From Gammaproteobacteria bacterium (GTDB taxonomy: Bacteria; Pseudomonadota; Gammaproteobacteria; GRL18): a stretch of DNA of 50,339 nt. The stretch's first letter is position 1; the number at the start of each line of letters is the position of its first letter. This document shows positions 13,005 through 34,137 of this stretch, piece by piece. The stretch spans positions 1 to 50,339 of the forward strand of contig WFNB01000079.1 of assembly GCA_015488755.1 (NCBI GenBank), read 5' to 3'. Below the pieces are notes generated by a model that was not told the origin of the DNA, did not search any database, and saw nothing but the letters and a program-made list of their open reading frames with translations. The position numbers and the translations under genes were made by a program.

Positions 13005-13727
13005 TTGACTAAAAAAACCAAACAAACAAAAATATTTAATGACAGTGCCTTTGGCTGGGATGGACTTTCGACCTTTATTTTTTCTAATATTGTCCTAATA
13101 CTGACATTGGGTTGTTGTTTTTTCTATTTATTATTTAAAACAGTACAAACAGCTATGGTGAGTAAAACGAACACCAAGCGCCCACTTTCTGCCATTCTAG
13201 TTGCTGGCCTATGTTTAAAAAACAATCAGCCCAGTGACGAATATAAAACACGCTTACAACGTGTTATTAGGCTATTAGACACACAGAAAAAGCCCACTCA
13301 GATTATTATATTAGGGGGTATTACTGGCAATAATAGCCATTCAGAAGCTCAGGCTGGTGCTCATTATTTAAGCCATAATGGCATTGATAGTAAGCTCATT
13401 ACTCTTGAGGATCAGTCACGCCATACACTGGAAAATTTACAAAATGCTCGCTCTATATTAGGCCAACAATTAGCTCAAAAAAAACCTCTAGACACAACCC
13501 AAACAATTGCAATTATTAGCAGTCGTTATCATCTTTATAGAATTCTTACACTAGCCCAAGGCATGAATATGACTTTACTGACTATTGCCTCAGAAGAAAG
13601 AACTTCTTTTTCCACAGCATTTTTTTTAAGGCTCTTAAAAGAAGCTTATTTTATTCATTGGTATTGGAGCGGTAGAGCATGGGTCTGGCTCAGTGGTAAT
13701 AAAAACAGCAAGCAACGGATCAGTTAA
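13005..13727 (+). CDS. YdcF/DUF218-family membrane-anchored protein
   Basis: The C-terminal 180 residues follow the DUF218 pattern: ILVAGLCLKN, repeated RLQRVIRLL, a short strand IIILGGITG, a Glu in SEAQAGAHYL, and DQSRHTLENLQNA, where S-x-H-T-x-E-N is the family motif. Members include YdcF, SanA-like and envelope-biogenesis proteins; most have no proven reaction. One TM segment (FIFSNIVLILTLGCCFFYLLF) precedes the domain. The frame begins with TTG at 13005 and a weak ribosome-binding site. Starting at the internal ATG (residue 52) would remove the TM, so the TTG start is preferred. Its end overlaps the convergent FGE fragment by 8 bases. Confidence 0.7.
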   Translation: MTKKTKQTKIFNDSAFGWDGLSTFIFSNIVLILTLGCCFFYLLFKTVQTAMVSKTNTKRPLSAILVAGLCLKNNQPSDEYKTRLQRVIRLLDTQKKPTQIIILGGITGNNSHSEAQAGAHYLSHNGIDSKLITLEDQSRHTLENLQNARSILGQQLAQKKPLDTTQTIAIISSRYHLYRILTLAQGMNMTLLTIASEERTSFSTAFFLRLLKEAYFIHWYWSGRAWVWLSGNKNSKQRIS

Positions 13728-14043
13728 CCTGCACTAAACGAAAGCCAACATTGCCATGACGTGCCGTTCGAGAGTCTTTATAGCGATTAGCAGCACGGAT
13801 CCATGATGGGAAATTAATCCATGAACCACCCCGCATGGATAGACGTTGAGCACTATTATCACAAAGCATTTCTTTACCTTCATAGTCCTTTTGATAAGCA
13901 GAGCAGGTCCATTCCCAGACATTGCCAAGCATATCATTGAGACCATACGCATTGGCTCGATAACTGCCTACCGGAGCGGTATATTTATAGCCATCATCAC
14001 AGGGAAAATTGTTTTTCCATTTATTGCCCTGATCCACAATTTT
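13720..14043 (-). pseudogene. C-terminal fragment of a formylglycine-generating-enzyme (SUMF1-like) protein
   Basis: About 105 residues match only the end of the FGE-sulfatase domain: APVGSYRANAYGLNDMLGNV, WEWTCSAY, SMRGGSWINFPSWIRAANRY and the terminal GNVGFRLV. The first half of the domain (the EWEYAARGG region and before) is missing, and a stop at 14044-14046 closes the frame. The best start is a GTG with no ribosome-binding site. This fits a broken gene. Family members include sulfatase activators and many proteins of unknown role, so the lost function is unclear. It overlaps the convergent DUF218 gene by 8 bases. Confidence 0.8.
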
Positions 14044-14210: not shown

Positions 14211-15056
14211 TCAATGCACGTAGTCACTAAAAGATGAGTCCGAACATCGTTTAATACGCTGTAATAAAGTATCCAAGGTTTTTTCGGTGTATTCCAAATT
14301 AAGCGGTATCTGAGCATAAGATTGTACTTTTAAACAAGAATACGCCTCACTGCTCAAGGTGCTTGATTTTATTTGCTGAGTATCTGAGAAACTCAAATAG
14401 CGATTTTTTAAATAGGGATTAAACTGAGCTAAAATCAATTTTTGTTCCAAAGAAAGTGCTCGGAATAAAGACAACATTTTCTTTTCCACTTTTTTTAGCT
14501 GTTCTTTGAGCACCACTTCATTATCCAGATATTCTTCATTATGAATGGGATCCATGGTAGCCAAGGTAGGGGCGATATAGTCCGTTAGCATGATTAATAG
14601 TCGAGGATCCATCCAAAAGCGTAAATCACTACTGGCCTGCCTATCAGTAAAATTAGCATCACGATCATAGCTCTCTAATTTTTCTTTTTCTAATAATGGA
14701 ATATAAAGAGACAAGGTGATCACTTTATCTTGTAAGCTCTGATCATGTTGTTGCAAGAAATCATCCAGTCGTCCCTCAAAGCCCCTACCCACTCGAATAA
14801 TAATATCTGCATCCAATAAGATCTTTTTTTGCCATGCTGACAAGGGCTGATCAATATCCTTAAAGTGAGCATAAACTACCTCTGGCTGCGCTATCGCATG
14901 AGTTAAGCTTGCCAACACTTCATAAAGAGGCTCAATACTGACCACAATCTTAGGCTGTTGATAGTGCATAGAAGAGGCATTAATAGGGATATTATCAGCC
15001 TGAGCAGTTGTTATTCCCCAGCCAAATAGAAACAATAATAATGTATATTTAATCAC
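14211..15056 (-). CDS. ZnuA-like periplasmic solute-binding protein lacking metal ligands
   Basis: The 281-residue protein has a signal peptide (1-20) and the cluster-A-I (ZnuA/TroA) fold pattern: KIVVSIEPLYEVLASLT, ADIIIRVGRGFEGRLDDFL, DLRFWMDPRLLIMLTDYIAP, and a charged linker helix at about 180-200. The His residues that bind Zn or Mn in the family appear replaced: VGRGFEG where family members have xGxxxE/HxF, and RFWMDP in place of HxWLDP. No His-rich loop is present. No znuB or znuC gene is nearby. The GTG start at 15056 directly follows the stop of the AAA+ gene, so translation is coupled. It probably works with the ATPase/flotillin cluster as a periplasmic sensor or scaffold, not as a metal importer; that is inference. 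Confidence 0.7.
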   Translation of the reverse strand: MIKYTLLLFLFGWGITTAQADNIPINASSMHYQQPKIVVSIEPLYEVLASLTHAIAQPEVVYAHFKDIDQPLSAWQKKILLDADIIIRVGRGFEGRLDDFLQQHDQSLQDKVITLSLYIPLLEKEKLESYDRDANFTDRQASSDLRFWMDPRLLIMLTDYIAPTLATMDPIHNEEYLDNEVVLKEQLKKVEKKMLSLFRALSLEQKLILAQFNPYLKNRYLSFSDTQQIKSSTLSSEAYSCLKVQSYAQIPLNLEYTEKTLDTLLQRIKRCSDSSFSDYVH

Positions 15057-18000
15057 TTATGATCCCTTATCAGCTTTCGCCTGAACATCTTTCCATCCCT
15101 TAGGTTTTGTAGCACGTTTAGCTACCCGTTTACGGGTTTGCTTAGTTTGTGGTTTCTGCTGCTTGAAATTTTCACCCATCGTATTTATTTCAGTCGTTAA
15201 TGCTTGCACTTCTTCCCAGATGGACATATCCAGTGCCAGTTTATGATTCATTGCCTGAAAAACAGGCAAAAAACTGGTCTCAAATAAGTCGGCCATCTTA
15301 ACAAACATTTCAGTTACGCCTGTAATGGGTTCATTTGTCACATTCACTTCCATTGATGCATTATCCATAACATTCTGAATAGCTTGCACACTCTCATTTA
15401 ATTGTTTAACATTTTGGCTCAACAAGGTTTCACCCGCAACACTTTCTTGAATGTCCGCTAAACGCGTGGCAATAACACCGATCTGATTAGCTAGCTGACT
15501 GGCACCATCGGCATCATCGCCACCTAAAGAATTAATACGCATAAATTCCTTTTTCATATGTTGCCAGCGTTGCTCTGTTTCTGGTGTGAGTACACCACGC
15601 AGTTCATCCAGTTTTAATAAATTTTCTTCTGCACCACTGGTTAAGGTTTGCGCTTCGCCAATATAATGTTCTCGGATCATCTGCTGTAATTCATCATCAT
15701 TCATAATTGGGTTTATTTTTTCTGCCATTTTATTCATATTACGATACGAACCCTGTAAACGAAATGGAGGTTCGGTTCGATATTTATCAGCCTGAGCAGC
15801 CGAGGCAATATATTGCTGATTTACTTTGAGCACAACCTCTTGAGCAATAAATAAACGCTTTAATAATTCAATAATTTCATTAATTTCTACCGATGAATAA
15901 TTGTGTTTTAAATCCGTACTGGGGATGGTTTCTCCTTTAGCCATACGCATAAGCAAATAGAGATCAGCTAAATCACGATTAGCCAAAGGCGCTAAAATAG
16001 GATTAGAGCTGAGGGTATTTTCAATATAGCTAGACTCAAACGCCTCTTGAGAATCACCTAAAATATCACCTAAATTATAAATATCTGCACGGTTGGCTAA
16101 CATATCCGGTATTTTAAACGCTTCACCTGATTCGGTATAAGGGTTACCCGCCATGACCACACAAAACTTTTTACCTCGCATATCATAGGTTTTGGTATCC
16201 CCTTGCCAGACACCTTCAATACGCCGAGAGGCATCACATAAGGAAATAAATTTTTGTAAAAATTCAGGATTAGTATGTTGAATATCATCAAGATACAACA
16301 TGACATTATTACCCATTTCTAAGGCAAAATTTAATTTAACCAGTTCTTGCCTAGCGGTTGCATGTTGTGCTTCTTGTGGATCAAGTGATTGCACCTGATG
16401 ACCAATTGAGGGGCAATTTATTTTCATAAACACCAAACCAAGGCGGTTGGCAATGTATTCCATTAAGGTTGTTTTACCATAGCCTGGTGGTGAGATCAGT
16501 AACAATAAGCCCATTAAGTCCGTACGTTTATGCTCGCCTATGGTGCCCATTTGTTTGGCTAAATTAGCACCGATAATAGGTAAATAAACTTCATTAATCA
16601 GACGATTACGAATAAAAGAACTGATTGGTCGGGCAATGTATTGTTCCAGATTTAATTGTTTTCTTTGTTTTTCAATTAATGTCTGGCGCAATTGCTGATA
16701 GTGTTGATAGCCATCAACAACATGAGCACTATGTCGGCTTAAGCGTTCAATATAATCATCCAACACAAAGTTCATGCCTTGTTCTTTAAGACGAGGGTGT
16801 TCTCCCATTAAGTGTTCAATTGGTTGTACCAAGGTCGTGCTGACAACATTGGTTTTTAATTTTTTAGCCACAAATAATAAGGCCGTGGCTTCAGGTATAA
16901 AACGAGTGTATTCAGATAAGTCGGCTTTATACTGGCAATAAGCATTAAGCCAAGCCTCAGCCGTTGCCATACGTTCAAACAAACGATGCTTATCACTATT
17001 GAGTAATTGCACCAATTGATTTTCCATATGCTTGTGTTGTAAAAATTTCAGCAAGCCAGAGACTAATGCCTGTGCTTCTTTAGTCACTAGAAATTCTGTT
17101 TTATCAGCAGCTAAAGCTTCGGTTAAATAACGTGACGACTGTGCGATTTGACTGTCTTGTATTGTTAAATTTTCAGAATGAACAAAAGCCTTCATGTGAT
17201 GATGCAAACTGACACTGGTCTGTAATACCGCATCCATACTGGCAAATAATTGGTTTAAAGACATTGCATTACGACAACGATCCAGCCATTGCTGTTGCTG
17301 CTGAGTATCTTGAGCTAACCAAAACAATAAAGCTAACGCCCGAACTGAGGGACTAAAGCGTAATAAGCCTGCCTGTTGCTGTAGTGTTAAGAAGGTGGCT
17401 AATATTTTAGTGGCATCGGTATCATGAATACCTTTTTCATAACCTTCTTGATAACGAGGTTGTGCATAGTCTTGGACAAGTAGCAACAATTCTGCCTCAT
17501 TTTTACTAGCCGCCAATAATTTAGCCATGCTAATAGTGGGGTGTATTCCTGAATCAACATCCTGAAACAATGACCATGCTAAATATTCACTACGATAGAC
17601 GGCCTTAGTTTCTGAGAGCAAAGATTGCCCCCAAAATTCTTGAGTAGCCAAAAGCGCTTTATCATCAATGATCTGCTGAAAATCAGTGCCGGTGATATAC
17701 AGTTTCATTTGTGCTGGCTGACTATCCGTATCCGCTAACAAGGTAATATCAATGGCCTGAGTATTAACACTAAACTGATATTGGCCGAATTTTATGCCCT
17801 GACCACCCTCAGTATAAATTTCCTGCTTATCCCTCAGACCTCTAAGTGCCTGTTGTTTGGTGGTCTTTAATAAGGCCGATAGCTCATCGGATTTAACACT
17901 ATCACCTAAGTCACTTAATTGCTCAGCGATGCTAAGCACCTTATGCGGCATGGGATCAGAGGCAAAATAGGTATTAATTTCATCATCTTTTTGATAACTG

Positions 18001-20384
18001 CTACTACGACGCACAATCGAGTCAATAATACGCTTAGCAGCTTTATAGAGGTTTTGACTGCGACGATTACGCTCGTCCTGTAACTGCTGCCGACGACTTT
18101 CAAACACTTGTTGAACTTCTTCACGCTTAGTAAGAATACCTTCTAAAAACTCATCATAATCACTAAAACGAGACTCTAACTCTTCTAGTTGCACCATTAA
18201 GCGGGATAATTGGTTATCACAATCTTCAGGTGTGGTCACTAAATTAAGCGCATTATTAACACTTTGGGCAAATAATTTAAACTGTGCCGAAAATTCAGCA
18301 ACGGCCTCTTTAGAGCCAAGGGATTTATATTTATGTCCAGCCGTGGCTTTTATTTGATTGGCCTTGGCATAGACCTCAGAAATCGCTTCAAGGATCTCAG
18401 TTCGCGTGCTGGCTTCTTCAACGTTTAAGGAAGCCAATAATTCAGTTAATAGATCCAGCCCTTCGGTAACTGTTTTCAGCTCTTCTAACAAGGGCTTAAT
18501 TTTAGCCACTGAGCTTACTTTTTCAATTTCCTCGCTGATACTCTCTAAATGTTTGCTATAAAACGTCAAAGCATTCGGCTGGCTTAAAAACTCAACGGTT
18601 TGTTGTGATAGTTTATCCTGAGTGTCTTGCAATTGGTCACGCAATTGGTCAATCTGTTGTTGATCAATATAACGATATTCACGGATGGTTAATAAATGGC
18701 CATTTTGCTGACGTAATTGTTGCAAGACATCCACAAAATCCATTGGGGTTTGCCATTGCCGATAAGTTAATTCCTTAAGTAGATTTTTTTGTTTTTTCTG
18801 CGCCCCTTTAATGGCTTCATTGGCCTTAGCCTGAATACTTTGTACTTTTTCAAATTCATCTAAAACCAATTCAGAGGTTGCCGAAATTTCTTTTAAGGCG
18901 CTGGCGAATTGCCCCGCTTGTTGATCTGATAACCAAAAATAGCTGTCCAGAATTTGCCCACTGGTTTTTATAATCTGATCATAATGACTGACCCCAGGAC
19001 TTTGCTTACGAATGGTACGCACCAAAGAAAATAATTCTGAAATACCACGCACCACCTCAGCATTACCTAATTTACCTAAGAAGGTTTGGCTGCTTTCATT
19101 TTGTGCTGAAAATTCATCGCTAAAAAAAGGCGTTTGCCAAATTTGCATAGGATGCACACGAGTAGGTTCACTATTACTATCAAATTCAAATAAGAGAAAT
19201 TGACCATCTTCAAAACGTGCCATTCCATGACAATAAATCGGGTTCTGTAATTTCTTATGCACTAGATTATAAGCAAATAAACCAATTCGCCCTTCTTCTG
19301 GTTCATAAAACACATATAAGGCATCTTCACCGTTAGGAGACTTAATTAAACGCTGAAACACAAGCCCCTGAGATTCTTCGTCAAAGGACTTACTTTCTCC
19401 TGTTTGTAAATAATAACCACCGGGATAAACAATACCGTGATCTTCTAATAATTGAATACAAGAATGCGCCAAAGCATCAATGCGTTTTACTTCTTGATTG
19501 CGAGTGTTATAAACCAGATAGCGAAAGTCTTCTTCTCGATAGGGTTTTATTTTAATAATAATCAAACTACCTAGCTGAGCATAGTATAGTTCAATATCAC
19601 TTAATGACTGATTGCGTTCTTCTACCGGCTCACTATAAATGCCTTCACCCGTATCGGTATTATTCTCAATCTTTATGGTGAGATCACCCTTGGTGGTTTC
19701 AATAAAGACCGTATCAAGAATATTAATATGGGCAAATTGTCCATTCACATGGTCATCACGAGTGATCCCTTGCCATTCAAAGTCATAGGGCTTTAGTTGT
19801 GGTATCTCTCGTTCACCTCGATCATCAATATAAGAAACCTGTCCCTTATTATCAATCATCCAGCGAAACACACGAATATCATCAATATTACGACCAATTC
19901 TAAAGACCGCATAAAAGCGATTTTTTTCACGATATAATTGTGTCAGCGTGGTACTTTTATAATAATTATACAGTTCATTAAATTGACGCACAAAGGTCGT
20001 GTCGGCAAGAAAGGTGTCCGCTAACGAAACTTCATTAATGTCATACGTTTCATCTACAATGTCTAACTTATAGAGATTGAAAACATCGTGTACCTGTATT
20101 TCACTTTTTAAGCCTAAGTGGACATTATAGGCAAACAGAATGTGTTCACCGACCCGAATAATATCTCTGGGCACACAATTATTTTCCGTGCGAACCCGCA
20201 CCCGACCCATTATTTTTAGATCAGCCTGTCCAAATTCATCAATACGTTGGCTGTTAAGGTGTTCTATTTGTTGCTTAAGCGCCTTAGCCTGATCAGTTAA
20301 ACGTTTGGCAATCAGTTCATAGGCTCCGCCATCAGCAACGGCTTGTTCAACTTGTTGCTCCTGATGTGTTTTTTCCTGATTCAT
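15057..20384 (-). CDS. Giant AAA+ ATPase with N-terminal DUF3686-like and coiled-coil regions
   Basis: The 1775-residue protein belongs to the family commonly labelled 'DNA repair ATPase', although no repair role is shown. Residues about 1-60 are helical, about 60-470 form a beta-rich DUF3686-like part (GRVRVRTENNCVPRDIIRVG, repeated YxxY/LFxFDS strands), and 500-820 are coiled coil. A Walker-type AAA+ domain lies at about 1280-1480: Walker A ISPPGYGKTT near 1298, Walker B VMLYLDD near 1361, and an arginine-rich sensor segment (PPFRLQGSYRNMNKMAEK). The basic C-terminus (QTRKRVAKRATKPKGWKDV) may touch nucleic acid or lipid. It has no TM. It lies between the flotillin and ZnuA-like genes, which suggests a membrane-linked remodelling role. 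Confidence 0.75.
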   Translation of the reverse strand: MNQEKTHQEQQVEQAVADGGAYELIAKRLTDQAKALKQQIEHLNSQRIDEFGQADLKIMGRVRVRTENNCVPRDIIRVGEHILFAYNVHLGLKSEIQVHDVFNLYKLDIVDETYDINEVSLADTFLADTTFVRQFNELYNYYKSTTLTQLYREKNRFYAVFRIGRNIDDIRVFRWMIDNKGQVSYIDDRGEREIPQLKPYDFEWQGITRDDHVNGQFAHINILDTVFIETTKGDLTIKIENNTDTGEGIYSEPVEERNQSLSDIELYYAQLGSLIIIKIKPYREEDFRYLVYNTRNQEVKRIDALAHSCIQLLEDHGIVYPGGYYLQTGESKSFDEESQGLVFQRLIKSPNGEDALYVFYEPEEGRIGLFAYNLVHKKLQNPIYCHGMARFEDGQFLLFEFDSNSEPTRVHPMQIWQTPFFSDEFSAQNESSQTFLGKLGNAEVVRGISELFSLVRTIRKQSPGVSHYDQIIKTSGQILDSYFWLSDQQAGQFASALKEISATSELVLDEFEKVQSIQAKANEAIKGAQKKQKNLLKELTYRQWQTPMDFVDVLQQLRQQNGHLLTIREYRYIDQQQIDQLRDQLQDTQDKLSQQTVEFLSQPNALTFYSKHLESISEEIEKVSSVAKIKPLLEELKTVTEGLDLLTELLASLNVEEASTRTEILEAISEVYAKANQIKATAGHKYKSLGSKEAVAEFSAQFKLFAQSVNNALNLVTTPEDCDNQLSRLMVQLEELESRFSDYDEFLEGILTKREEVQQVFESRRQQLQDERNRRSQNLYKAAKRIIDSIVRRSSSYQKDDEINTYFASDPMPHKVLSIAEQLSDLGDSVKSDELSALLKTTKQQALRGLRDKQEIYTEGGQGIKFGQYQFSVNTQAIDITLLADTDSQPAQMKLYITGTDFQQIIDDKALLATQEFWGQSLLSETKAVYRSEYLAWSLFQDVDSGIHPTISMAKLLAASKNEAELLLLVQDYAQPRYQEGYEKGIHDTDATKILATFLTLQQQAGLLRFSPSVRALALLFWLAQDTQQQQQWLDRCRNAMSLNQLFASMDAVLQTSVSLHHHMKAFVHSENLTIQDSQIAQSSRYLTEALAADKTEFLVTKEAQALVSGLLKFLQHKHMENQLVQLLNSDKHRLFERMATAEAWLNAYCQYKADLSEYTRFIPEATALLFVAKKLKTNVVSTTLVQPIEHLMGEHPRLKEQGMNFVLDDYIERLSRHSAHVVDGYQHYQQLRQTLIEKQRKQLNLEQYIARPISSFIRNRLINEVYLPIIGANLAKQMGTIGEHKRTDLMGLLLLISPPGYGKTTLMEYIANRLGLVFMKINCPSIGHQVQSLDPQEAQHATARQELVKLNFALEMGNNVMLYLDDIQHTNPEFLQKFISLCDASRRIEGVWQGDTKTYDMRGKKFCVVMAGNPYTESGEAFKIPDMLANRADIYNLGDILGDSQEAFESSYIENTLSSNPILAPLANRDLADLYLLMRMAKGETIPSTDLKHNYSSVEINEIIELLKRLFIAQEVVLKVNQQYIASAAQADKYRTEPPFRLQGSYRNMNKMAEKINPIMNDDELQQMIREHYIGEAQTLTSGAEENLLKLDELRGVLTPETEQRWQHMKKEFMRINSLGGDDADGASQLANQIGVIATRLADIQESVAGETLLSQNVKQLNESVQAIQNVMDNASMEVNVTNEPITGVTEMFVKMADLFETSFLPVFQAMNHKLALDMSIWEEVQALTTEINTMGENFKQQKPQTKQTRKRVAKRATKPKGWKDVQAKADKGS

Positions 20385-20474
20385 AATTCCACTTTTTGAA
20401 TGATATATGACAAAAGGTATTGCAGGGCCGTTGCTCTACAATACGCAACGACCACAAACAATCATAAAGAGAGT

Positions 20475-22643
20475 CTATTTCTTAGGAATAAGTGAGCCAA
20501 TAAGCTCAGCTAATTGTGCTTTTTGTTGCGGATCTGCACGCTTCATTTTCTGTAAAAACGAAGACACACTGAGGTTCTTAATGGCCTCTGAGGAGAGATT
20601 ACCTTCTCCTAAGATATCCTTCATATCATCCATAATACTTTTTTCACCACTGATACGATCCGATAAGGCGCTCTGCACCACATCACTTTTATCTACTACA
20701 GTATCAATTGCTTTGCCAACCGATAGCGCATTAACAAAATTATCAAAGAACTGACCATCACCACCGACAATATCAAACTTAGCATTAGCAAAGGCTTTGC
20801 CCAATATTTCTGCTTGCTCTTTGGCAATATCACGGTTCATAACAATTTGTTCCATGCCCAATTCAAGGTTTTGTTCTAATTGCATGCGAAATTCTTCATG
20901 AGCACGAGAGTCTTCATCCATTTGTGCCATAGCAGCAAATTTTTCTTTCATACCTTCGGCTTTGGCTTTCTCTTTTTGTAAAATAGAGTCACCCTCAGCT
21001 TCACCCATTGCCCGTAAAGCATCGGCCTCGGCAACACCATGTAATTGCTTAATGGTGGCTTCTTCTTTACGAATTTTAACATCCACCATACGTTGTTTTT
21101 CTTCACCCGCAGAGTCGGCTTCTTTTACTCGTACTTGAGCCATGCCTTTTTCTTCGGATATTTTAGCCTCAGCCAGTCCCATTTTTTCATTTGCTTCGGC
21201 CATTTCTTTTGTCACCATGGCTTCGACCATACCTTGTTTCTCGGTGGCTTCTGCTTGGGCAATATTAACTCGAGCTTCTGCAAGACCTGAGGCAGCTTCT
21301 TCAGCTTCAATACCTTCTGCCAGCGATTTTTTCGCATCGGCTTCTTTTTCAGCGGCTTGTCGATCCGCTTCGGCTAATGATAATTGCTCTTTGGCCTTAA
21401 AGTCTGCCGTAATACTTTGAGCTTCGGCATCTTTAACCGACATAATTGCGGCTTCTTCGGCCTCAGCCTCGGCTGCGGTTACTTTGACCAATTTATTACG
21501 ATCCGCTTCTTCACTGACACGAATATTTTTAATATTTTCTTCTTCGATAGCGACTTTCTTTTCTACCGCAATACGCTCTGAAATAATATCCGTTATTTGT
21601 TTTTTCTCTTCTTCAACCAGCTTATCTTTTTCAATATCTTTGAGTGCCGTTTCTTGTTCACGAGATATTTTTGCCAACTCTTCTGCTCGCACAACTTCTT
21701 CACGTTCGGTGGCTAAGGCTCGTTCACGATTCAGTGATGCCACCTCTAACTCACGACGTTTATTTTCTTCTTCAATACCAATACCTTTTTCTTTTTCAAT
21801 TCGAGCATGTTCTGTTTTAAAGGTTTCTTGTTCTTCTATTTTAGCTGCCTCGGCTATTTCTCTGGCATTAATAATGGTAATTTCACGTTCTTGAATGGCT
21901 TCTGCCTCGGCTTGCTGGCGTTCAAGAGAAAGTATTTTTTCTTTGGTTTCAACATCCTTTTTCTTAATTTCAGCCCGTTCGTTATTACGCAATTCATTGG
22001 TTATTACATTTTGCTTAGCGGTTAATTCGGTAATTTTTCGAATACCCTGAGAGTCTAAAATATTATCCACATCGAGTTCATCAATAGGTGTTTGCTCTAA
22101 ATAGTCAATGGCGACATCTTCTAATACATAACCATTTAAGTCTGTACCAATGACTTTTTTAATGTTTTCACGAAAAGATTCTCGTTCTTGATAGAGGGAA
22201 ACAAAGTCGAATTGTTTACCAACTGTTTTTAATGCTTCGGAAAACTTTGAACTGAATAATTCTTCTACGGCGGCTTGATCCGATGCTCGTTCACAGCCTA
22301 ATGATTTTGCCACTCGCAAGACATCTTCTTCGGTTTCATTGACTCGCACAAAGAAATCAACCCGACAATTGGCTCGAATATTATCCATACAAATCAAACC
22401 ATCTGAACCATGTCTTGCAATCGTCAGACGCTTTACTCGAATATTCATAAACTCTTTACGATTAACAATGGGATACACCACACCACCGCTAAAAGAGACT
22501 TTGGCCTTTTTCGCCATACCATTAATAATCAGCGCCTGCCCCTGATCAACTTTGACATAAAAACTCACCACAATGGCCGCTAATGCACCTAAAAAAAGTA
22601 GAATCCCACCAATAACAACAATGACACCGATAATACCGTCCAT
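20475..22643 (-). CDS. yqiK: Flotillin-like SPFH protein (YqiK family)
   Basis: The 722-residue protein has an N-terminal TM (GVIVVIGGILLFLGALAAIV), an SPFH/band-7 domain (about 30-200, GQALIINGMAKKAKVSFSGG) and a very long Glu/Ala/Lys coiled coil (about 210-600) with many AEA/EAE repeats. A Gly-rich turn and a helical end (VSSFLQKMKRADPQQKAQLA) follow. This is the bacterial flotillin pattern, with a longer coiled-coil than most. Flotillins gather into membrane microdomains. A strong ribosome-binding site (GGAAGGAG) precedes the ATG. It lies 31 bases after the YqiJ-like gene, the same pairing as yqiJ-yqiK in E. coli. Confidence 0.9.
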   Translation of the reverse strand: MDGIIGVIVVIGGILLFLGALAAIVVSFYVKVDQGQALIINGMAKKAKVSFSGGVVYPIVNRKEFMNIRVKRLTIARHGSDGLICMDNIRANCRVDFFVRVNETEEDVLRVAKSLGCERASDQAAVEELFSSKFSEALKTVGKQFDFVSLYQERESFRENIKKVIGTDLNGYVLEDVAIDYLEQTPIDELDVDNILDSQGIRKITELTAKQNVITNELRNNERAEIKKKDVETKEKILSLERQQAEAEAIQEREITIINAREIAEAAKIEEQETFKTEHARIEKEKGIGIEEENKRRELEVASLNRERALATEREEVVRAEELAKISREQETALKDIEKDKLVEEEKKQITDIISERIAVEKKVAIEEENIKNIRVSEEADRNKLVKVTAAEAEAEEAAIMSVKDAEAQSITADFKAKEQLSLAEADRQAAEKEADAKKSLAEGIEAEEAASGLAEARVNIAQAEATEKQGMVEAMVTKEMAEANEKMGLAEAKISEEKGMAQVRVKEADSAGEEKQRMVDVKIRKEEATIKQLHGVAEADALRAMGEAEGDSILQKEKAKAEGMKEKFAAMAQMDEDSRAHEEFRMQLEQNLELGMEQIVMNRDIAKEQAEILGKAFANAKFDIVGGDGQFFDNFVNALSVGKAIDTVVDKSDVVQSALSDRISGEKSIMDDMKDILGEGNLSSEAIKNLSVSSFLQKMKRADPQQKAQLAELIGSLIPKK

Positions 22644-22674
22644 ATTAGACTCCTTCCCATTAATTTATAATTAT

Positions 22675-23301
22675 TTAGTATTTTTTAACCCAGTAGCAAT
22701 GATTTTCTCTATCATATTCTAATAAAATAATCTCATCACCTTTTTTAATACGACTGTCTTTTTTGTTTCTGACTTGAAAAATATAATGATCGCCCTCTTT
22801 ACTTAATTCTGCCTCCCCGAAGGTATCACTCACCTCTGAAGTGATCACCTGGCAAATTTCACCTAATAACTCGTTGGAACGGGTTGCATAACTAACCTTA
22901 AAAAAACGTTTCATAGGCTTGGTCATAAAAATAGTAATGGGAACAGAAATAATAATAGAAGCCAGCATGGTGATAATGGCCATTAACCAAAACCAGAAGC
23001 CCATAGAAAAAAATGACAGCAAATAAAGTGAACTTAGGTATGTGCCCAGCCAAGCGAATAAGATAATAAAACTAACAATAATAGAGATAGGCAAACCCGT
23101 CAGCCCCAGTGCCACCATAACGCCAGCAACACCACCCACAGGCGTTGCTTCACCGCCATAATCCATGTCAAGATCAATATCTAAAAAGTCAATATCAAAT
23201 AAACCAGCAATGGTGAGTAACCAGTAAACTGAAATAAACCCTAATAACACGCTAAAGATAATCGTGGGAAAAGACAGAGCCGTGCTAAAAAAGTTTTCCA
23301 T
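22675..23301 (-). CDS. yqiJ: YqiJ/NfeD-like membrane protein with OB-fold C-terminus
   Basis: Three to four TM segments (residues 5-30, 65-95, 100-135) are followed by a small beta-barrel domain (about 140-208: ELLGEICQVITSEVSDTFGE, HYIFQVRNKKDSRIKKGDEI). This matches YqiJ, the NfeD/OB-fold partner that stabilises flotillin assemblies. I chose the ATG at 23301 (MENFFSTALSFP, 208 aa). The frame is open 20 codons further, but that stretch overlaps a REP-like repeat end, and AGGGAG lies before the chosen start. It shares an operon with the flotillin gene. Confidence 0.8.
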   Translation of the reverse strand: MENFFSTALSFPTIIFSVLLGFISVYWLLTIAGLFDIDFLDIDLDMDYGGEATPVGGVAGVMVALGLTGLPISIIVSFIILFAWLGTYLSSLYLLSFFSMGFWFWLMAIITMLASIIISVPITIFMTKPMKRFFKVSYATRSNELLGEICQVITSEVSDTFGEAELSKEGDHYIFQVRNKKDSRIKKGDEIILLEYDRENHCYWVKKY

Positions 23302-23367
23302 AATAAAATAAAGTCTCCCTAGTTGATTTATTTGGCTATTGCTAAAATAGCTTAGTCTCACTCGTTG

Positions 23368-23382
23368 GCGGGGCTAAAGCCC
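23368..23382 (+). repeat. REP-like 15-mer, copy 1
   Basis: GCGGGGCTAAAGCCC contains the palindromic core GGGCTAAAGCCC except for its A-rich centre. The same 15 bases occur inverted at 24575-24589, so the pair brackets the block 23397-24488. Short intergenic repeats of this look are common in gammaproteobacterial genomes. Confidence 0.6.
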
Positions 23383-23396
23383 AAGCCCATAGAAGC

Positions 23397-23876
23397 TTAT
23401 CGCAAAGCAATACTCTCTAGGTCATAGATAATATCACGATTATAAGCGTCTGGATTTTTTGCTTCATCCTCATCAACTAACTCAACATAAATAACTGGCT
23501 GCTCCTTGCCTTTTACAGTCAGTACCGCGGCATAGGCATTATAGGTCAGCCCTCTTCGTTGTGATCGACCAGCAAATCTAAATTCATTATCCTCATCAAT
23601 GGCAGATAAACCATAGCCCCGATAGAGTTGTTTCAGATACTTTAACCAATCGGCCTTGGGAACATCCCCCATATCAATGATCTGGACAAATTCACCATCT
23701 TCATTAATCTCTTCCCCTTGAGGATGGTAAAAATAGTTGCTGATCACACCACCAGACATTTTTTTAAAGTAGGTGAAATGAGCACCATTAAAGTCAAAGT
23801 CCTGTTTATAGGGGGAGGCCAACATAAAGGTAGCACCCAGACCTGCAATTAACAATAACAATACGAGTTTTTTCAT
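23397..23876 (-). CDS. Secreted or membrane-anchored protein of unknown function (159 aa)
   Basis: The product starts with a hydrophobic signal or anchor (MKKLVLLLLIAGLGATFMLA) and has no lipobox Cys. The mature 138 residues are mixed alpha/beta and acidic, with FNGAHFTYFKKMSGG, FVQIIDMGDVPKADWLKYL, and strands LTYNAYAAVLTVKG and QPVIYVELVDEDE. I do not recognise the family. A strong ribosome-binding site (GAAGGAG) supports the start. It lies between REP-like copies and within the PspA/flotillin cluster, in the same orientation, so a role at the periplasmic face of that system is plausible. The REP copy downstream suggests that transcription may be partly separated from yqiJ. Confidence 0.6.
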   Translation of the reverse strand: MKKLVLLLLIAGLGATFMLASPYKQDFDFNGAHFTYFKKMSGGVISNYFYHPQGEEINEDGEFVQIIDMGDVPKADWLKYLKQLYRGYGLSAIDEDNEFRFAGRSQRRGLTYNAYAAVLTVKGKEQPVIYVELVDEDEAKNPDAYNRDIIYDLESIALR

Positions 23877-23909
23877 TTGCCTTCTCCTTCTACCGCATTG
23901 GCATTTTAT

Positions 23910-24089
23910 CTAGTCAAACAAGCCATGTTTCTTCATTTGTGGTTTGATCACCTTATCAATCAAATACCATGATCCTAAACCAATCAGTGAAAGCATAATT
24001 AACTTCCAACTAATAGCGACCATAATTTTCAACAGAATAATCACGGCTAAAGCAGCAACCGAATAATACATCATTTTTTTAGTATCCAT
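23910..24089 (-). CDS. Small membrane protein of 59 residues
   Basis: MDTKKMMYYSVAALAVIILL opens one hydrophobic stretch, a second follows (SWKLIMLSLIGLGSWYLI), and the end is basic (KVIKPQMKKHGLFD). AAAGGAGT sits 8 bases before the ATG, a strong ribosome-binding site. The gene lies in the stress cluster between the 159-residue and the 111-residue unknowns, in the same orientation. It may be an integral membrane helper similar in size to PspB/PspC/PspD-type partners, but no sequence similarity is visible. Confidence 0.65.
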   Translation of the reverse strand: MDTKKMMYYSVAALAVIILLKIMVAISWKLIMLSLIGLGSWYLIDKVIKPQMKKHGLFD

Positions 24090-24152
24090 TTTTTACTCCT
24101 TTACCTATCGTATTAGTACAACTTGAATCTAAATAGGAAAAACATTAATCAT

Positions 24153-24488
24153 TTATTTTTTTGCTAACTGGTAATAGGCCTCAACTTCACGACTGATCCC
24201 CAAGCGAATATAGGCTCTATCATTGGGGTCAATATCATAGCGGCCTGCTAAGACTTCTCTATCCTCTGCGCTAAGAGAGATAGTTAAACGAGGCTTTAAG
24301 GGTGGATCATAATGCAAGTTTAAAATTTTCCTCAATTGTGATGATGGTGATATACCACTATCCAAGGCATCCTGCTTAAGCTGTTTTTCAACTAAGTCTT
24401 CAAATTCAAAGGCTAATTGCATTTTTTTTATCTGCCTATCTGAGGTTTTCCAACGTTCAGGAATTTTTATTTTTTTATCTATTGTCAC
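24153..24488 (-). CDS. Unknown 111-residue protein of the PspA cluster
   Basis: The start is GTG at 24488, with GGTGG upstream. The product has no signal peptide or TM. The first half is Lys/Glu-rich (IPERWKTSDRQIKKMQLAFE, FEDLVEKQLKQDALDSGISP), then SSQLRKILNLHYDPP and a second part with RLTISLSAEDREVLAGRYDI. The pattern of a short helix, a 'GISPSSQLRKILNL' helix-turn-helix-like segment and a second repeat of the same size suggests a small DNA-binding protein with two ribbon-helix-helix-like halves. I do not recognise the family. It could regulate the cluster, for example at the palindrome at 25844-25883. Confidence 0.5.
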   Translation of the reverse strand: MTIDKKIKIPERWKTSDRQIKKMQLAFEFEDLVEKQLKQDALDSGISPSSQLRKILNLHYDPPLKPRLTISLSAEDREVLAGRYDIDPNDRAYIRLGISREVEAYYQLAKK

Positions 24489-24574
24489 CGTTTTACCACC
24501 ATTGATAGCAATTACTTATACTTAAATATTCTAAAAACAGTTCATTATTGAACCAAGTATCCAAACTGGAACTA

Positions 24575-24589
24575 GGGCTTTAGCCCCGC
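24575..24589 (-). repeat. REP-like 15-mer, copy 2 (inverted)
   Basis: This is the reverse complement of copy 1 at 23368-23382. It is followed on the plus strand by AATGCGCGGG, so CCCGCAATGCGCGGG can also form a small stem. It lies between pspA and the 111-residue gene. Confidence 0.6.
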
Positions 24590-24625
24590 AATGCGCGGGA
24601 CTAATGTCTTACTGCCGATTCTTTA

Positions 24626-25318
24626 TTACTCAGCCTTCTCTGCCTTATAACGCTCTAATACCGACTTGCCATTGGCCTTGCTATGAATGACACCCGCGCT
24701 GACTAATTTGTCTTTTAGCTCAACACTATTGGTCTCTTTAGCAATTTCTCTGGCCGCTTTCATTTTATCTTTGCGTTTTTGCTGGCGCTCTTTAATGCGT
24801 TTTAACGAATCACTGGCGGACTGCAAGGATGAATTACTGCCTGAAAAACGCTCGGCTGTCAGTTCCGCGGCTTTTTGGGCGGCTTCGGTCGATTTCACAA
24901 TAGAGACTTCACGTTCTAGTGCTTTAACCTGCTTATCTGACTCTAAAATCGTCACTTTTAGATCCGCTACCTGCTCAATATAGGTCTTTAATACCGCTTC
25001 TTCTGTTTCTAATTCCATTTCGACTTCAGCAATTTTCTCTGCGGTTTCAGCCGCTAAAGACTCATCACCGCGTTCTAATAATTCTCGAATAGCTTGGTCA
25101 TACTCAGCTAGTTGCTTGCGTGTGACTTCAACCTGACGCTCCATTTTTAATTGCTCTGCCATCACATCGGTTAATGATTCTTTGGCATCACCCTGTGCTT
25201 CTTTGGCATCACGGATCTCTTGTTCTAAAATTCGAATACCCTGTGCATCAATAAAGACTTCTTCTGCCTCATGACCCACACCACGCAGTGTTGCCCATAC
25301 TTTTGTTAAAAATCCCAT
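24626..25318 (-). CDS. yjfJ: PspA/IM30-family protein (YjfJ-like)
   Basis: The 230-residue product is an almost wholly helical, coiled-coil protein beginning MGFLTKVWATLRGVGHEAEE, the amphipathic helix a0/h1 region of PspA/IM30 proteins that binds curved or damaged membrane. Glu/Lys/Gln-rich helices cover residues 20-200. PspA proteins polymerise into ESCRT-III-like rods and support membrane integrity. I chose the ATG at 25318, because AGGAGCAGGACA lies directly upstream. It follows yjfI by about 70 bases, as in the yjfI-yjfJ pair of E. coli, hence the subfamily name. Confidence 0.85.
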   Translation of the reverse strand: MGFLTKVWATLRGVGHEAEEVFIDAQGIRILEQEIRDAKEAQGDAKESLTDVMAEQLKMERQVEVTRKQLAEYDQAIRELLERGDESLAAETAEKIAEVEMELETEEAVLKTYIEQVADLKVTILESDKQVKALEREVSIVKSTEAAQKAAELTAERFSGSNSSLQSASDSLKRIKERQQKRKDKMKAAREIAKETNSVELKDKLVSAGVIHSKANGKSVLERYKAEKAE

Positions 25319-25388
25319 TGTCCTGCTCCTGTCTATAATTGCGCTCATTACTTTATTTAAAAGTAATAGTTAAACGATATAGTTAACA

Positions 25389-25808
25389 CTACACCAAAAA
25401 TGTGTCCATTACTTCCAAAGCATCTATGACATTATCCGATAGAGTTTCAATTTCTAATAAAATATTTTTATCCATAGAGCCCGTAGCCAAGGCACCAAAA
25501 ACTGAGTAATACGTCCCAGTTTTGGCAAAGGACGATAGGGGCATGGCCATATTAAGCTGTAGCATCACCTCATTGACTTCTGCTTGACAGCCTTGCTTTA
25601 TTTGCTTTTCATCAAATAACACTGCATTACATAAAATTTGATCAGCACTGGCAGTAACCAGAACCGGAAACTCATCTCGATCTTCACGGATCACCATTAG
25701 CATCGGTGTTTCACCTGTGACATCAATTTTAGAGCTTAGATAGGTACCATCTAAGGTCATTTTTTTATTTACCGCGTTATGAACTCTTTGCAAAATTTCC
25801 AACATCAT
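25389..25808 (-). CDS. yjfI: YjfI-like protein (DUF2170)
   Basis: The 139-residue product (start MMLEILQRVHNAVN) has the DUF2170 layout: a helical N-terminus, strands around PMLMVIREDRDEFPVLVTAS, and the helix-rich end VMLQLNMAMPLSSFAKTG with IETLSDNVIDALEVMDTF. This family is encoded directly upstream of PspA homologues of the YjfJ type and is thought to act with them; its reaction is unknown. GAGAGGGA lies before the ATG at 25808. It is the promoter-proximal gene of the cluster and reads from the promoter at 25837-25864. Confidence 0.8.
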   Translation of the reverse strand: MMLEILQRVHNAVNKKMTLDGTYLSSKIDVTGETPMLMVIREDRDEFPVLVTASADQILCNAVLFDEKQIKQGCQAEVNEVMLQLNMAMPLSSFAKTGTYYSVFGALATGSMDKNILLEIETLSDNVIDALEVMDTFLV

Positions 25809-25836
25809 CGTATCCCTCTCAAATAACGTACTATAC

Positions 25837-25864
25837 ATAATATGCTAATGACATAAAATGTCAA
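25837..25864 (-). promoter_or_regulatory. Promoter of the yjfI-pspA cluster
   Basis: A perfect TTGACA (25859-25864) and TATTAT (25837-25842) are spaced by 16 bases on the minus strand. The -35 lies between the arms of the palindrome and one arm fills the spacer, so a bound regulator would cover the promoter. Confidence 0.65.
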
Positions 25865-25883
25865 GACAGTTTATGTCATTAGC
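25844..25883. promoter_or_regulatory. Perfect 14-bp palindrome, operator candidate
   Basis: GCTAATGACATAAA (25844-25857) and TTTATGTCATTAGC (25870-25883) are exact inverted copies with a 12-base spacer. Half-site centres are 26 bases apart, about 2.5 helical turns. It overlaps the yjfI promoter and lies about 90 bases before the divergent metallo-hydrolase gene, so one regulator could control both. It is not a terminator, since no T-run follows. Confidence 0.7.
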
Positions 25884-25914
25884 GTGATTCTGTTCACAAA
25901 AACATCTCTCTACC

Positions 25915-25943
25915 TTGTTTTCATCGTTTGTAGTATATTTAAT
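25915..25943 (+). promoter_or_regulatory. Candidate promoter of the metallo-hydrolase gene
   Basis: TTGTTT and TTTAAT are spaced by 17 bases, ending about 30 bases before the ATG at 25974. Confidence 0.4.
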
Positions 25944-25973
25944 AGATACATACGTTTCTGGGAAGAAAATACC

Positions 25974-26813
25974 ATGCTAAGCATAAAATTTTATGGTGTC
26001 AGAGGGTCTATTTCTGTTTTTGGCGAAGAATATCGTGAATTTGGCGGTAATACGACCTGCATACAGATCATGGCATCGGATACCAAACGCATCGGTATCT
26101 TAGATGCTGGAACCGGTATCCGTTTATTAGGCAAAGATATTCTGGCAATGGATAATCATCAAGATGAGTTATTTATTGCCTTTTCTCATTTTCATTGGGA
26201 TCACATTCAAGGCCTGCCCTTTTTTGCCCCTGCCTATGAAAAAAATATGCATATAAAGATACTCGCTTTAGGGCAAGATCGAAAAATTGAAAATCTTAAA
26301 GATATTTTTGGCATTCAAATGCAAGCCCGATTTTTTCCTCTGACGATGGAAGACATGGGCGCTCAGTTTAGCTTTTTATCCATCGACAAAAATAGTGAGG
26401 TTTTTCTCCCCCCCGATGGTATTCCCGTTAAAATGACCGCCGTGCGCCATAACCATCCCGGTGGTGCCTATAGTTATCGCTATGAACGTGAACAACATTC
26501 CATTGTTATTTCCACCGATATTGAGCATGGCGAGAGCATCGATCAAAACATTGTTGAATTAGCAAGAAACACCGATTTACTGGTTCACGATGCTCAATAT
26601 TCCAGTGAAGAATTAAAATCCCGCAAAGGCTGGGGGCATAGCAGTTATGATCAGGCCATTGCAGTGGCCAAACAAGCCAATGTGAAAAAACTGATCATCA
26701 CCCATCACGACCCCGAACATGACGATGCCTATTTGCGTAAAATGGAAAAATGGTGTCAGGAACGTTTCAGTCATTGTGAATTTGCCCGAGAAGGCATGAC
26801 GGTGACTGTCTAG
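25974..26813 (+). CDS. Metallo-beta-lactamase-fold hydrolase
   Basis: The 279-residue product starts MLSIKFYGVRGSISVFGEEY, the characteristic N-terminus of an MBL-fold subfamily often annotated as phosphodiesterase-like or two-component-associated hydrolases. The metal motif SHFHWDHIQGLPFF (HxHxDH) is intact, as are a second His in RHNHPGGAYS, the bridging Asp in STDIEHG and the final His in ITHHDPEHDD. It has no signal peptide. GGGAAG lies before the chosen ATG. A frame upstream starting with GTG at 25884 would overlap the palindrome and is unlikely. It is divergent to yjfI. The substrate is unknown; a cyclic nucleotide or a phosphodiester is possible. Confidence 0.8.
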   Translation: MLSIKFYGVRGSISVFGEEYREFGGNTTCIQIMASDTKRIGILDAGTGIRLLGKDILAMDNHQDELFIAFSHFHWDHIQGLPFFAPAYEKNMHIKILALGQDRKIENLKDIFGIQMQARFFPLTMEDMGAQFSFLSIDKNSEVFLPPDGIPVKMTAVRHNHPGGAYSYRYEREQHSIVISTDIEHGESIDQNIVELARNTDLLVHDAQYSSEELKSRKGWGHSSYDQAIAVAKQANVKKLIITHHDPEHDDAYLRKMEKWCQERFSHCEFAREGMTVTV

Positions 26814-26831
26814 CAATTAAGGAAAGACACT

Positions 26832-27254
26832 ATGCATAGCAGAAAACATGAAATCCTCTTATTCATTGCCATTGTCATCGCAATTTTTTCGTATAATCAA
26901 TACAGCAATACACAACAGCAATACGCCGCTAGTCTTAGCGAAGGGCTTATTTTAGCCAGTAATATCAAGTCTGATGTGAGCAATTATTATATGATGAATG
27001 GTCATTTCCCCAATAATAAGACGGATATTCACCTTGCTGATTTTAAGCCAAGCCCTAAGACAACCATCTCAGCCATCGATATTCTAGCAGGAGGGGTTAT
27101 TCAAGTTTCTTATAATAAACGCTCTGGTTTTAGAAACCATACTCTGCAACTCATCCCCGATGATAGTAATAACGCCTACGGCATTAACTGGTTCTGTGTG
27201 ACCTCCAGCAAAAAAATAACCTCACTCATCGCCACCTGCGACTATTTACCCTAA
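26832..27254 (+). CDS. Pilin-like membrane-anchored protein without a prepilin cleavage motif
   Basis: The 140-residue product has a short basic start (MHSRKHE), a TM helix (ILLFIAIVIAIFSYNQY) and a pilin-like continuation: YAASLSEGLILASNIKSDVS, NYYMMNGHFP, a middle beta region, and WFCVTSS followed by TCDYLP, two Cys that could form the D-region disulphide of type IV pilins. The pattern 'A..EGL.LAS..KS.V..YY..NG.FP' matches PilA-type proteins, but the G/A-F-T-L-x-E prepilin peptidase site is absent, so it should stay anchored by an uncut helix. It lies 18 bases after the hydrolase gene and may share its transcript. No other pilus gene is near. Confidence 0.6.
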   Translation: MHSRKHEILLFIAIVIAIFSYNQYSNTQQQYAASLSEGLILASNIKSDVSNYYMMNGHFPNNKTDIHLADFKPSPKTTISAIDILAGGVIQVSYNKRSGFRNHTLQLIPDDSNNAYGINWFCVTSSKKITSLIATCDYLP

Positions 27255-27326
27255 ATTCAAAGCATGAATTAAAAAAAAAAAAGAGTATAATAAAAGCGGA
27301 AATGGTGAATTATTTACATAATTGGT

Positions 27327-27373
27327 GTCACTATCTTACAGAATAGTGACCGATAACTTTGTAATATAGTGTC
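27327..27373. promoter_or_regulatory. Palindrome plus third half-site upstream of tpsA
   Basis: GTCACTAT (27327-27334) and ATAGTGAC (27343-27350) are perfect inverted copies with an 8-base spacer. A third half-site, ATAGTGTC, lies at 27366-27373, 23 bases downstream of the second. Three related sites 90-137 bases before the tpsA start suggest binding of a dimeric regulator. No regulator gene for it is evident. Confidence 0.5.
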
Positions 27374-27435
27374 AATACGCACGATCAGGCATAATTAATC
27401 AATAAGCCCGATTAAACAATAAAAGACACACAACC

Positions 27436-27448
27436 ATTGTCTGACAAT
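27436..27448 (+). promoter_or_regulatory. Small palindrome next to the tpsA ribosome-binding site
   Basis: ATTGTC T GACAAT is a perfect 6-bp palindrome around one base, ending just before GGGGATTGTT and the ATG at 27464. It could be an operator half or a small RNA hairpin in the leader. Confidence 0.3.
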
Positions 27449-27463
27449 AGACTGGGGATTGTT

Positions 27464-32515: not shown

Positions 32516-32530
32516 GCTGAGGACACGATT

Positions 32531-33937: not shown

Positions 33938-33980
33938 TCAACATTCAATCATAGGTGGGTACTTAAGCACTTTTGAGGCG

Positions 33981-34084
33981 GGATAACTCTGTATTTACTA
34001 CGCAAGACGCCGTAAATCCATCCATGGAGGCTTTATTGCCACATCCATGTGGCAAAAATTTCCTCCGTAAACACAGAGTTATCC
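33981..34084. repeat. 104-base nested inverted-repeat element between fecR-like and tpsB
   Basis: The outer arms GGATAACTCTGTATTTAC (33981-33998) and GTAAACACAGAGTTATCC (34067-34084) match at 17 of 18 positions. Inside, TTGCCACAT and ATGTGGCAA (34036-34055) form a perfect 9-bp hairpin, flanked by GGAGG and CCTCC that also pair. The whole element can fold into one long cruciform or hairpin. No coding frame is visible. It could be a small transposon-derived (MITE-like) repeat, and it may lower read-through from tpsA/fecR to tpsB. Confidence 0.75.
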
Positions 34085-34137
34085 TTAGGTATCTACGTAT
34101 GAACATTTAATAGATAGTAATCATTCAGGTAATGATA

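Follow-up and report, generated by a model that had tools for sequence, protein, structure and literature searches.

A probable bac-type YjfI-PspA-YqiJ-flotillin-AAA+ operon with a candidate two-protein repressor and its operator in a gammaproteobacterial contig

The window analysed here is the whole of a 50,339-nucleotide stretch of contig WFNB01000079.1 (assembly GCA_015488755.1) from a Gammaproteobacteria bacterium, and it was found to contain at 14211-25883 a cluster of nine minus-strand genes that includes those of a YjfI-like protein, a PspA protein, a YqiJ-like protein, a flotillin-like protein and a 1775-residue AAA+ ATPase. The locus is probably a bac-type YjfI-PspA-YqiJ-flotillin-AAA+ envelope-stress operon, the repressor of which is split into two proteins. 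It also seems reasonably probable that YjfI-class PspA systems in general have a dedicated repressor, the DNA-binding part of which is either fused to YjfI and paired with two TYACATGTRA sites or provided as a separate tandem ribbon-helix-helix (RHH) protein paired with GACATNNNATGTC, with YjfI carrying the PspA signal. The genes assigned to the system were those of YjfI, PspA, a 111-residue (111-aa) protein, YqiJ, flotillin and the ATPase, whereas the genes of a ZnuA-like protein, a 159-aa protein and a 59-aa protein were placed outside it. The core of the finding is already known because Ravi et al. 2024 (PMC11237479) and the bac operon of Pseudomonas aeruginosa (PMC10948618) have been published, and the added value lies in the separation of the core from its passengers and in a testable repressor-operator pair.

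Two forms of YjfI were found. The long form (BacA type) begins with a K/R-rich N-terminal extension, KSSAHYQRxYRxRLREQGLVKKEVWILPE, which was found to be more conserved than the remaining protein and to have a weak MazE-like antitoxin match, whereas the short form, as in the window, does not contain this extension and is accompanied by the 111-aa protein. The extension was present in none of the 13 loci with the 111-aa gene and in 33 of the 34 loci without it; by these counts, the 111-aa protein and the YjfI extension are mutually exclusive. The YjfI/BacA-like protein of the window (25389-25838, minus strand; 149 aa) was found to contain the DUF2170 domain with a CesT/Tir-like fold (Pfam, 1.2e-31) and to fall in the BacA family, below the NCBIfam equivalog cut-off. 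Its true start is probably later than listed, at 25808, because the listed ATG falls inside the -10 box.

The two forms were found with two different operators. In 33 of 33 extension loci, the YjfI promoter contained two or more TYACATGTRA palindromes with no more than one mismatch. Most of them lie at about -50 and about -27 relative to the start codon, and they often surround a TTGACA box. The YjfI promoter of the 111-aa loci contained GACATNNNATGTC in 13 of 13 cases and an exact TYACATGTRA in none. The background in random 310-bp stretches, with one mismatch allowed, was 1.4% for TYACATGTRA and 0.8% for GACATNNNATGTC. The operator/promoter of the window was found as a 40-bp palindrome at 25844-25883 (minus strand) with two 13-bp GACATNNNATGTC sites, an exact one at 25850-25862 and one with a single mismatch at 25865-25877, 15 bp apart. 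The palindrome spans the -35 box TTGACA (25864-25859) and the spacer, followed by the presence of the -10 box TATTAT at 25842-25837, and the promoter under it was the best sigma-70-like promoter of the region. No match to the sigma-54 site TGGCACN5TTGCW (at most two mismatches) was found at 25808-26100. The downstream TYACATGTRA site of extension loci such as L063 was found to end about 17 bp before the ATG, so that the yjfI/bacA mRNA may be nearly leaderless there.

Positional conservation, per-genome uniqueness and out-of-sample loci were given more weight than Fisher P values in judging this coupling. Six fresh loci all agreed with it, four being extension loci with TYACATGTRA and two being 111-aa loci with TTGACATNNNATGTC. 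In 10 of 13 genomes the paired site ACATGTRA...TYACATGT had a single occurrence, in each case at the YjfI promoter; the remaining three genomes contained no paired match, the spacing or sequence of their sites being outside the pattern. The TTGACAT-form TTGACATNNNATGTC has a single copy in the window's genome (25850-25864) and was found at the YjfI promoter in 8 of 10 genomes, in 6 of these 8 as its sole place. Both types were present within the window's own genus (the window with the 111-aa gene and GACATNNNATGTC, against genome G007, locus L017, with the extension and TYACATGTRA) and also within the Comamonadaceae (Variovorax against Delftia). Across the loci compared, the operator type tracks the operon type and not the host.

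The 111-aa protein (24153-24488, minus strand) is a conserved partner of YjfI-PspA. Besides the window, 14 ATPase loci contained a member of its family; among 369 genomes drawn without bias, 13 had one, with PspA adjoining in 11 of the 13. Nine of those genes lie in YjfI-PspA-111-aa operons with neither flotillin nor the ATPase next to them, and GACATNNNATGTC was found at the YjfI start in seven of the nine (one with one mismatch), often in tandem with a 15-bp period as in the window; the site therefore follows the 111-aa gene and not the ATPase. A monomer model of the protein contained helices at residues 31-44, 48-55, 74-84 and 91-110, and each helix pair is preceded by a strand-like segment (KMQLAFEF and RLTISL). 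By sequence this gives a beta-alpha-alpha layout twice, as expected of two RHH units, and suggests a tandem RHH protein. The 111-aa protein is accordingly described here as a candidate repressor and as a candidate conserved, PspA-linked cytosolic regulator, and not as one of the membrane or periplasmic parts of the ATPase that the first-pass annotation had suggested for the small proteins.

The neighbourhoods of the ATPase family were found to hold the core together. A genome scan with the single ATPase of the window gave no loci, its patterns being too specific, and an alignment-based scan gave 80; a total of 91 further ATPase loci, these 80 included, were read. Neighbourhood counts were made on 77 ATPase loci (the window included) with at least 6 kb upstream, and the shares are biased toward kin of the query because the 80 named loci were its top matches. 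The ATPase was adjoined by flotillin in 76 of the 77 loci, by YqiJ in 74, by PspA in 46, by YjfI in 44 and by the 111-aa family in 13. The outcome that would have told against the initial reading, an ATPase family normally without flotillin or PspA neighbours, was not seen for flotillin, nor, by a modest margin, for PspA. Few genomes contain the family (10 of 369 in the class, 10 of 397 in the phylum), and an unbiased draw of genomes gave six new ATPase loci, all with the full gene set. The YjfI-PspA and YqiJ-flotillin-ATPase genes were found joined across Pseudomonas, Cellvibrio, Gilliamella, Lysobacter, Variovorax and Pseudoalteromonas. On this comparative evidence, YqiJ, flotillin and the DUF3686 ATPase are one conserved unit, which in most loci is joined to the YjfI-PspA unit. 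A functional link of the ATPase with flotillin, YqiJ and PspA is very likely because the ATPase is nearly always beside flotillin and YqiJ and often beside PspA, and the six new loci agree.

The ATPase (15057-20384, minus strand) was found to contain DUF3686 at residues 36-483 (Pfam, 1e-186), DUF7902 at residues 604-687 and one AAA+ domain at about residues 1294-1440, with the Walker A motif SPPGYGKTT at residues 1298-1306 (16467-16493, minus strand). Of 92 ATPase relatives, 91 have kept Walker A, 91 the NRAD arginine motif and 89 the DD form of Walker B, and because these motifs are nearly invariant the enzyme is judged likely to be active. The flotillin-like protein (20475-22643, minus strand; 722 aa) is divergent, with a predicted transmembrane (TM) segment, SPFH/band-7 region and long coiled coil; the window protein matched no Pfam family, and among its aligned relatives (45-53% identical) Band_7 was found in 2 of 18 (best 1e-9) and Flot in 1 of 18. 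The YqiJ/YuaF-like membrane protein (22675-23361, minus strand; 228 aa, probable start 23301) contains several TM segments and matched no YqiJ-type Pfam family, with YqiJ_N found in 1 of 16 relatives (7e-5). Searches of the PDB with the flotillin and ATPase profiles gave no matches. The flotillin-like and YqiJ-like proteins are members of conserved families that adjoin the ATPase. The PspA/IM30 protein (24626-25348, minus strand; 240 aa), a member of the ESCRT-III superfamily, gave a Pfam PspA_IM30 match of 1.6e-33, and its true start is probably later than listed, at 25318. Among the gene labels given in the first reading, those of YjfI, PspA, AAA+ and ZnuA were thus borne out by Pfam, and those of flotillin and YqiJ are weak by Pfam but stand as conserved neighbour families.

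Operons with YjfI-PspA, band-7/flotillin, YqiJ and giant AAA+ genes have been described in the text of Ravi et al. 2024 (PMC11237479), where an ESCRT-like remodelling proposal for such operons and abbreviated YqiJ-flotillin-ATPase versions are also given. The window has in common with this class a YjfI gene (DUF2170/CesT-Tir) followed by PspA, YqiJ-like, flotillin-like and giant AAA+ genes, and differs from it by three extra passenger genes. The AAA+ protein described there has a long N-terminal part with a coiled coil and a beta-propeller; in the window ATPase, AAA+ and DUF3686/DUF7902 were found. Operators, the two YjfI forms and their mutual exclusion do not appear in the main text of that paper (PMC11237479). 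A second class of YjfI-PspA operons in that paper, with a beta-rich gene and an RHH gene, shares with the window the 111-aa family and the operator in seven of nine operons, but flotillin, YqiJ and the ATPase do not adjoin it and a protein of 212-219 aa lies between PspA and the 111-aa gene in most. In the main text of Ravi et al. (PMC11237479), an RHH gene is mentioned only at the end of another, spermidine-synthase, operon class; this gene is probably of the same family as the 111-aa protein. The proposed fused and split repressor-operator forms appear to be new, no description of them having been found in the literature searched.

The bacA-F operon of P. aeruginosa is apparently the orthologue of the window operon. 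RT-PCR showed that all six of its genes share one transcript. In a bacA mutant, biofilm formation is impaired, and BacB-D together with two downstream products rise 6-13-fold (PMC10948618). The raised Bac products in the mutant mark BacA as a negative autoregulator (PMC10948618). In the same work an unpublished BacA-BacB interaction was mentioned and the structure of the BacA DUF2170 domain was solved (PDB 8q8o). A sigma-54 promoter has also been proposed for bacA. Relatives of the window YjfI were found to match 8q8o; the crystal covers about residues 63-204, and the N-terminal extension is therefore unseen in the structure. Judging from the gene order in ten Pseudomonas loci (L063, L064 from P. 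chlororaphis, L068, L069, L071, L074, L075, L082, L122 and L128; P. aeruginosa is not among them), BacC-F would correspond to YqiJ, flotillin and the ATPase. The order YjfI-PspA-YqiJ-flotillin-(small TerB/EF-hand-like)-ATPase in these relatives is the same as that of the window core. The bac type contains the N-terminal extension and TYACATGTRA, whereas the window contains the short YjfI, a separate 111-aa protein and GACATNNNATGTC, and no sigma-54 site. With the operon class, the mutant phenotype of the Pseudomonas orthologue and the BacA structure in print, the combination can no longer be called uncharacterised, as it had been in the first-pass annotation, the interpretation of which is partly supported and largely anticipated by published work.

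In the mechanism proposed here, the 111-aa protein would repress the operon by binding both GACATNNNATGTC sites that cover the -35 region (25844-25883), and the CesT-like YjfI would read the state of PspA. The latter part of the proposal is made because CesT-like domains bind partners and because a BacA-BacB interaction has been mentioned. In the long form, the DNA-binding and PspA-reading functions would be present in one chain. Envelope damage would draw PspA to the membrane, the YjfI-PspA balance would shift and the operon would be derepressed. PspA would then coat the damaged inner membrane, flotillin and YqiJ would build a membrane platform, and the ATPase would remodel or recycle the assembly. 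Flotillin appears at least as likely as PspA to be the substrate, given the near-constant link between ATPase and flotillin. A dedicated repressor would account for the rise of the whole operon that follows BacA loss in P. aeruginosa. The comparison names a concrete DNA site, a protein and a domain, where the P. aeruginosa work left the regulatory role of BacA unexplained. If the proposal is true, the system would be a one-operon, one-operator membrane-stress switch different from PspF and LiaRS, and the operator sequence offers a clean envelope-stress reporter in many species. In Escherichia coli, PspF is a sigma-54 activator that is restrained by PspA. The window shares with the PspF-PspABC system the PspA family and a stress-operon logic with PspA as a likely component of the sensing, but contains a sigma-70-like promoter with repressor-like operators. 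It also shares with ESCRT-III/Vps4 a PspA protein of the ESCRT-III superfamily and an AAA+ ATPase encoded nearby; the window ATPase differs from Vps4 in its DUF3686/DUF7902, in a very long middle region and in that no MIT domain was found in it by Pfam. The link of this ATPase with flotillin is also closer than that with PspA.

Several points weigh against the split-repressor reading. The model of the 111-aa protein shows helices and no strand, its low-ranking PDB and Pfam matches (NikA, Arc, PutA, VapB, AvtR and FitA-like RHH proteins) have E values of 0.01-8, none significant, and its DNA binding is putative. Two of the nine 111-aa operons outside the ATPase group contain no operator. In the ATPase tree, the two types are split by one branch (SH-aLRT 85), so that the coupling may be one old switch and the Fisher P overstates independence; the coupling may be one ancient event kept over long branches rather than many. 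The titration of PspA and the action of the ATPase on PspA or flotillin are pure inference. Alternatively, regulators from genes elsewhere might bind the palindromes, which would leave the 111-aa protein and the YjfI extension to other roles such as PspA binding. The predicted nature of DNA binding by either, with a weak fold assignment, leaves room for this, but it is rather unlikely: the operator type follows the operon type and not the host in the window against G007/L017 and in the Comamonadaceae, BacA negatively regulates its own operon (PMC10948618), and the uniqueness or near-uniqueness of the sites within each genome points to a regulator that is dedicated and linked.

How far the genes form one system was weighed in the same way. 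A tenable though clearly less probable view holds that YqiJ-flotillin-ATPase, acting in microdomain quality control, and the co-regulated YjfI-PspA(-111-aa) genes are two independent modules joined by operon building. In 31 of the 77 ATPase loci PspA was not found nearby, which also counts against the proposed system, and the two sets of genes lie on different contigs in genomes G161 and G261 and in divergent orientation in loci L090 and L120. They are, however, joined in 46 of the 77 loci over wide taxa, the divergent intergenic region of L090 was found to contain four operator-like sites, and the six P. aeruginosa genes are co-transcribed and rise together in the bacA mutant (PMC10948618). 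Since the two units also occur apart, the nine-gene envelope-repair machine of the first-pass annotation is not supported as self-contained. As a whole, with the ATPase driving PspA or flotillin in the manner of Vps4 and with the small proteins as its membrane and periplasmic parts, it is regarded as distinctly unlikely. The common strand, the tight spacing, the direct ATPase/ZnuA-like coupling, the tie of the ATPase to flotillin and often to PspA, and the ESCRT-like proposal in the text of Ravi et al. (PMC11237479) speak for such a machine. Against it, the ZnuA-like, 159-aa and 59-aa genes were found beside the ATPase at no other locus, ZnuA-like orthologues lie elsewhere in related genomes, the 111-aa protein tracks YjfI-PspA and the operator rather than the ATPase, and the ATPase has no MIT-like domain by Pfam. 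A genuine partnership of the ZnuA-like protein with the ATPase, as a periplasmic sensor, is more improbable still; the zero-gap coupling, signal-peptide-like start and lost ligand sites of this protein would fit such a role, but in relatives the gene is found either after a PolB-like gene or next to a sigma-54 regulator, a long way from any ATPase (about 427 kb in G013, with the ATPase at 978 kb and the ZnuA-like gene at 1405 kb). The split-repressor reading, with the six core genes, was preferred to these views.

The nine ORFs were confirmed in the order first described, with 281, 1775, 722, 228, 159, 59, 111, 240 and 149 aa, and that description of the cluster was right. The direct coupling reported for the last genes was also found, the ATPase stop TAA (15057-15059) being followed directly by the GTG of the ZnuA-like gene at 15056. 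This coupling was rejected as evidence of a function with the ATPase because the ZnuA-like gene lies elsewhere in relatives. The ZnuA-like, 159-aa and 59-aa genes were likewise rejected as system members, since they were found beside the ATPase in the window alone among the 77 loci, and by this comparison they are local passengers outside the system.

The ZnuA-like exported protein (14211-15056, minus strand) gave a partial Pfam ZnuA match (2e-15) and is ligand-less as first noted, both testable metal-ligand sites being lost: the first, DIDQPLS, contains no His and the second, SDLRFWMDP, contains Arg where HxW is expected. This loss was common to all ZnuA-like orthologues examined. Its gene adjoins the AAA+ gene and a remnant ORF, and not the ATPase and permease genes of a zinc-type ABC transporter; other ZnuA-family genes of the same genome were found on contigs C30 and C36. 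At least eight genomes from the same family, most without any ATPase, contained orthologues with 50-59% identity. These orthologues follow a PolB-like gene (five genomes) or sit near argH/algR-type genes, and are usually beside a convergent PAS/sigma-54 regulator (L041-L049); the PolB (DNA polymerase II), argH and algR labels were given by eye from the sequence. A ligand-less ZnuA-like family, often directly after a PolB-like gene, is thus conserved in this bacterial family. At 13720-14037, just downstream of the ZnuA-like gene, a remnant of a formylglycine-generating-enzyme-like ORF (WEWTCS...RGGSW, by eye) was found.

The 159-aa protein (23397-23876, minus strand) has an N-terminal signal or anchor and the 59-aa protein (23910-24089, minus strand) has one or two TM segments; both are lineage-specific passengers. 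Neither they nor the 111-aa protein gave a significant match in Pfam or NCBIfam. The 159-aa gene had one relative among 40 related genomes, away from the system, and no relative of the 59-aa protein was found beside any other ATPase locus. The genes of the 111-, 59- and 159-aa proteins are bracketed by an inverted pair of the near-palindromic dispersed repeat GCGGGGCTAAAGCCC, with one arm at 24575-24589 (minus strand) and the other at 23368-23382 (plus strand). The repeat, which is possibly a REP-like element, has 33 copies in the genome (at most one mismatch; control 0), and a 137-bp gap with this hairpin-prone sequence separates PspA from the 111-aa gene.

Automatic clustering of the neighbour ORFs of the ATPase loci was swamped by shadow frames; zinc-ribbon, TerB/EF-hand-like and rhomboid families stood out as recurrent accessories. 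A TFIIB-type zinc-ribbon protein of about 180 aa was found beside or inside the operons in 15 loci, sometimes between flotillin and the ATPase (L021 15127-15657, L023 5826-6371, L024 13249-13797 and L117 9386-9931, for example). In Pseudomonas and its relatives, an 80-aa TerB/EF-hand-like protein, perhaps one of the last Bac proteins, recurs either between flotillin and the ATPase or immediately behind the latter (for example, L023 10774-11025, L068 9028-9270 and L065 15461-15697). The ATPase gene seems broken in G013 (L018 11896-13765), its ORF stopping after 467 aa with a transposase-like ORF alongside, and an in-frame stop divides the gene in G161 (L024 4917-10010).

Upstream of the operon, the neighbours at 25884-35730 were found to be a beta-lactamase-fold hydrolase, a pilin-like protein and a two-partner secretion (TPS) system with a 1692-aa TPS exoprotein, a FecR protein and a ShlB transporter. 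A second PspA-family gene was found elsewhere in the same genome (contig C24 2346-2996; L051).

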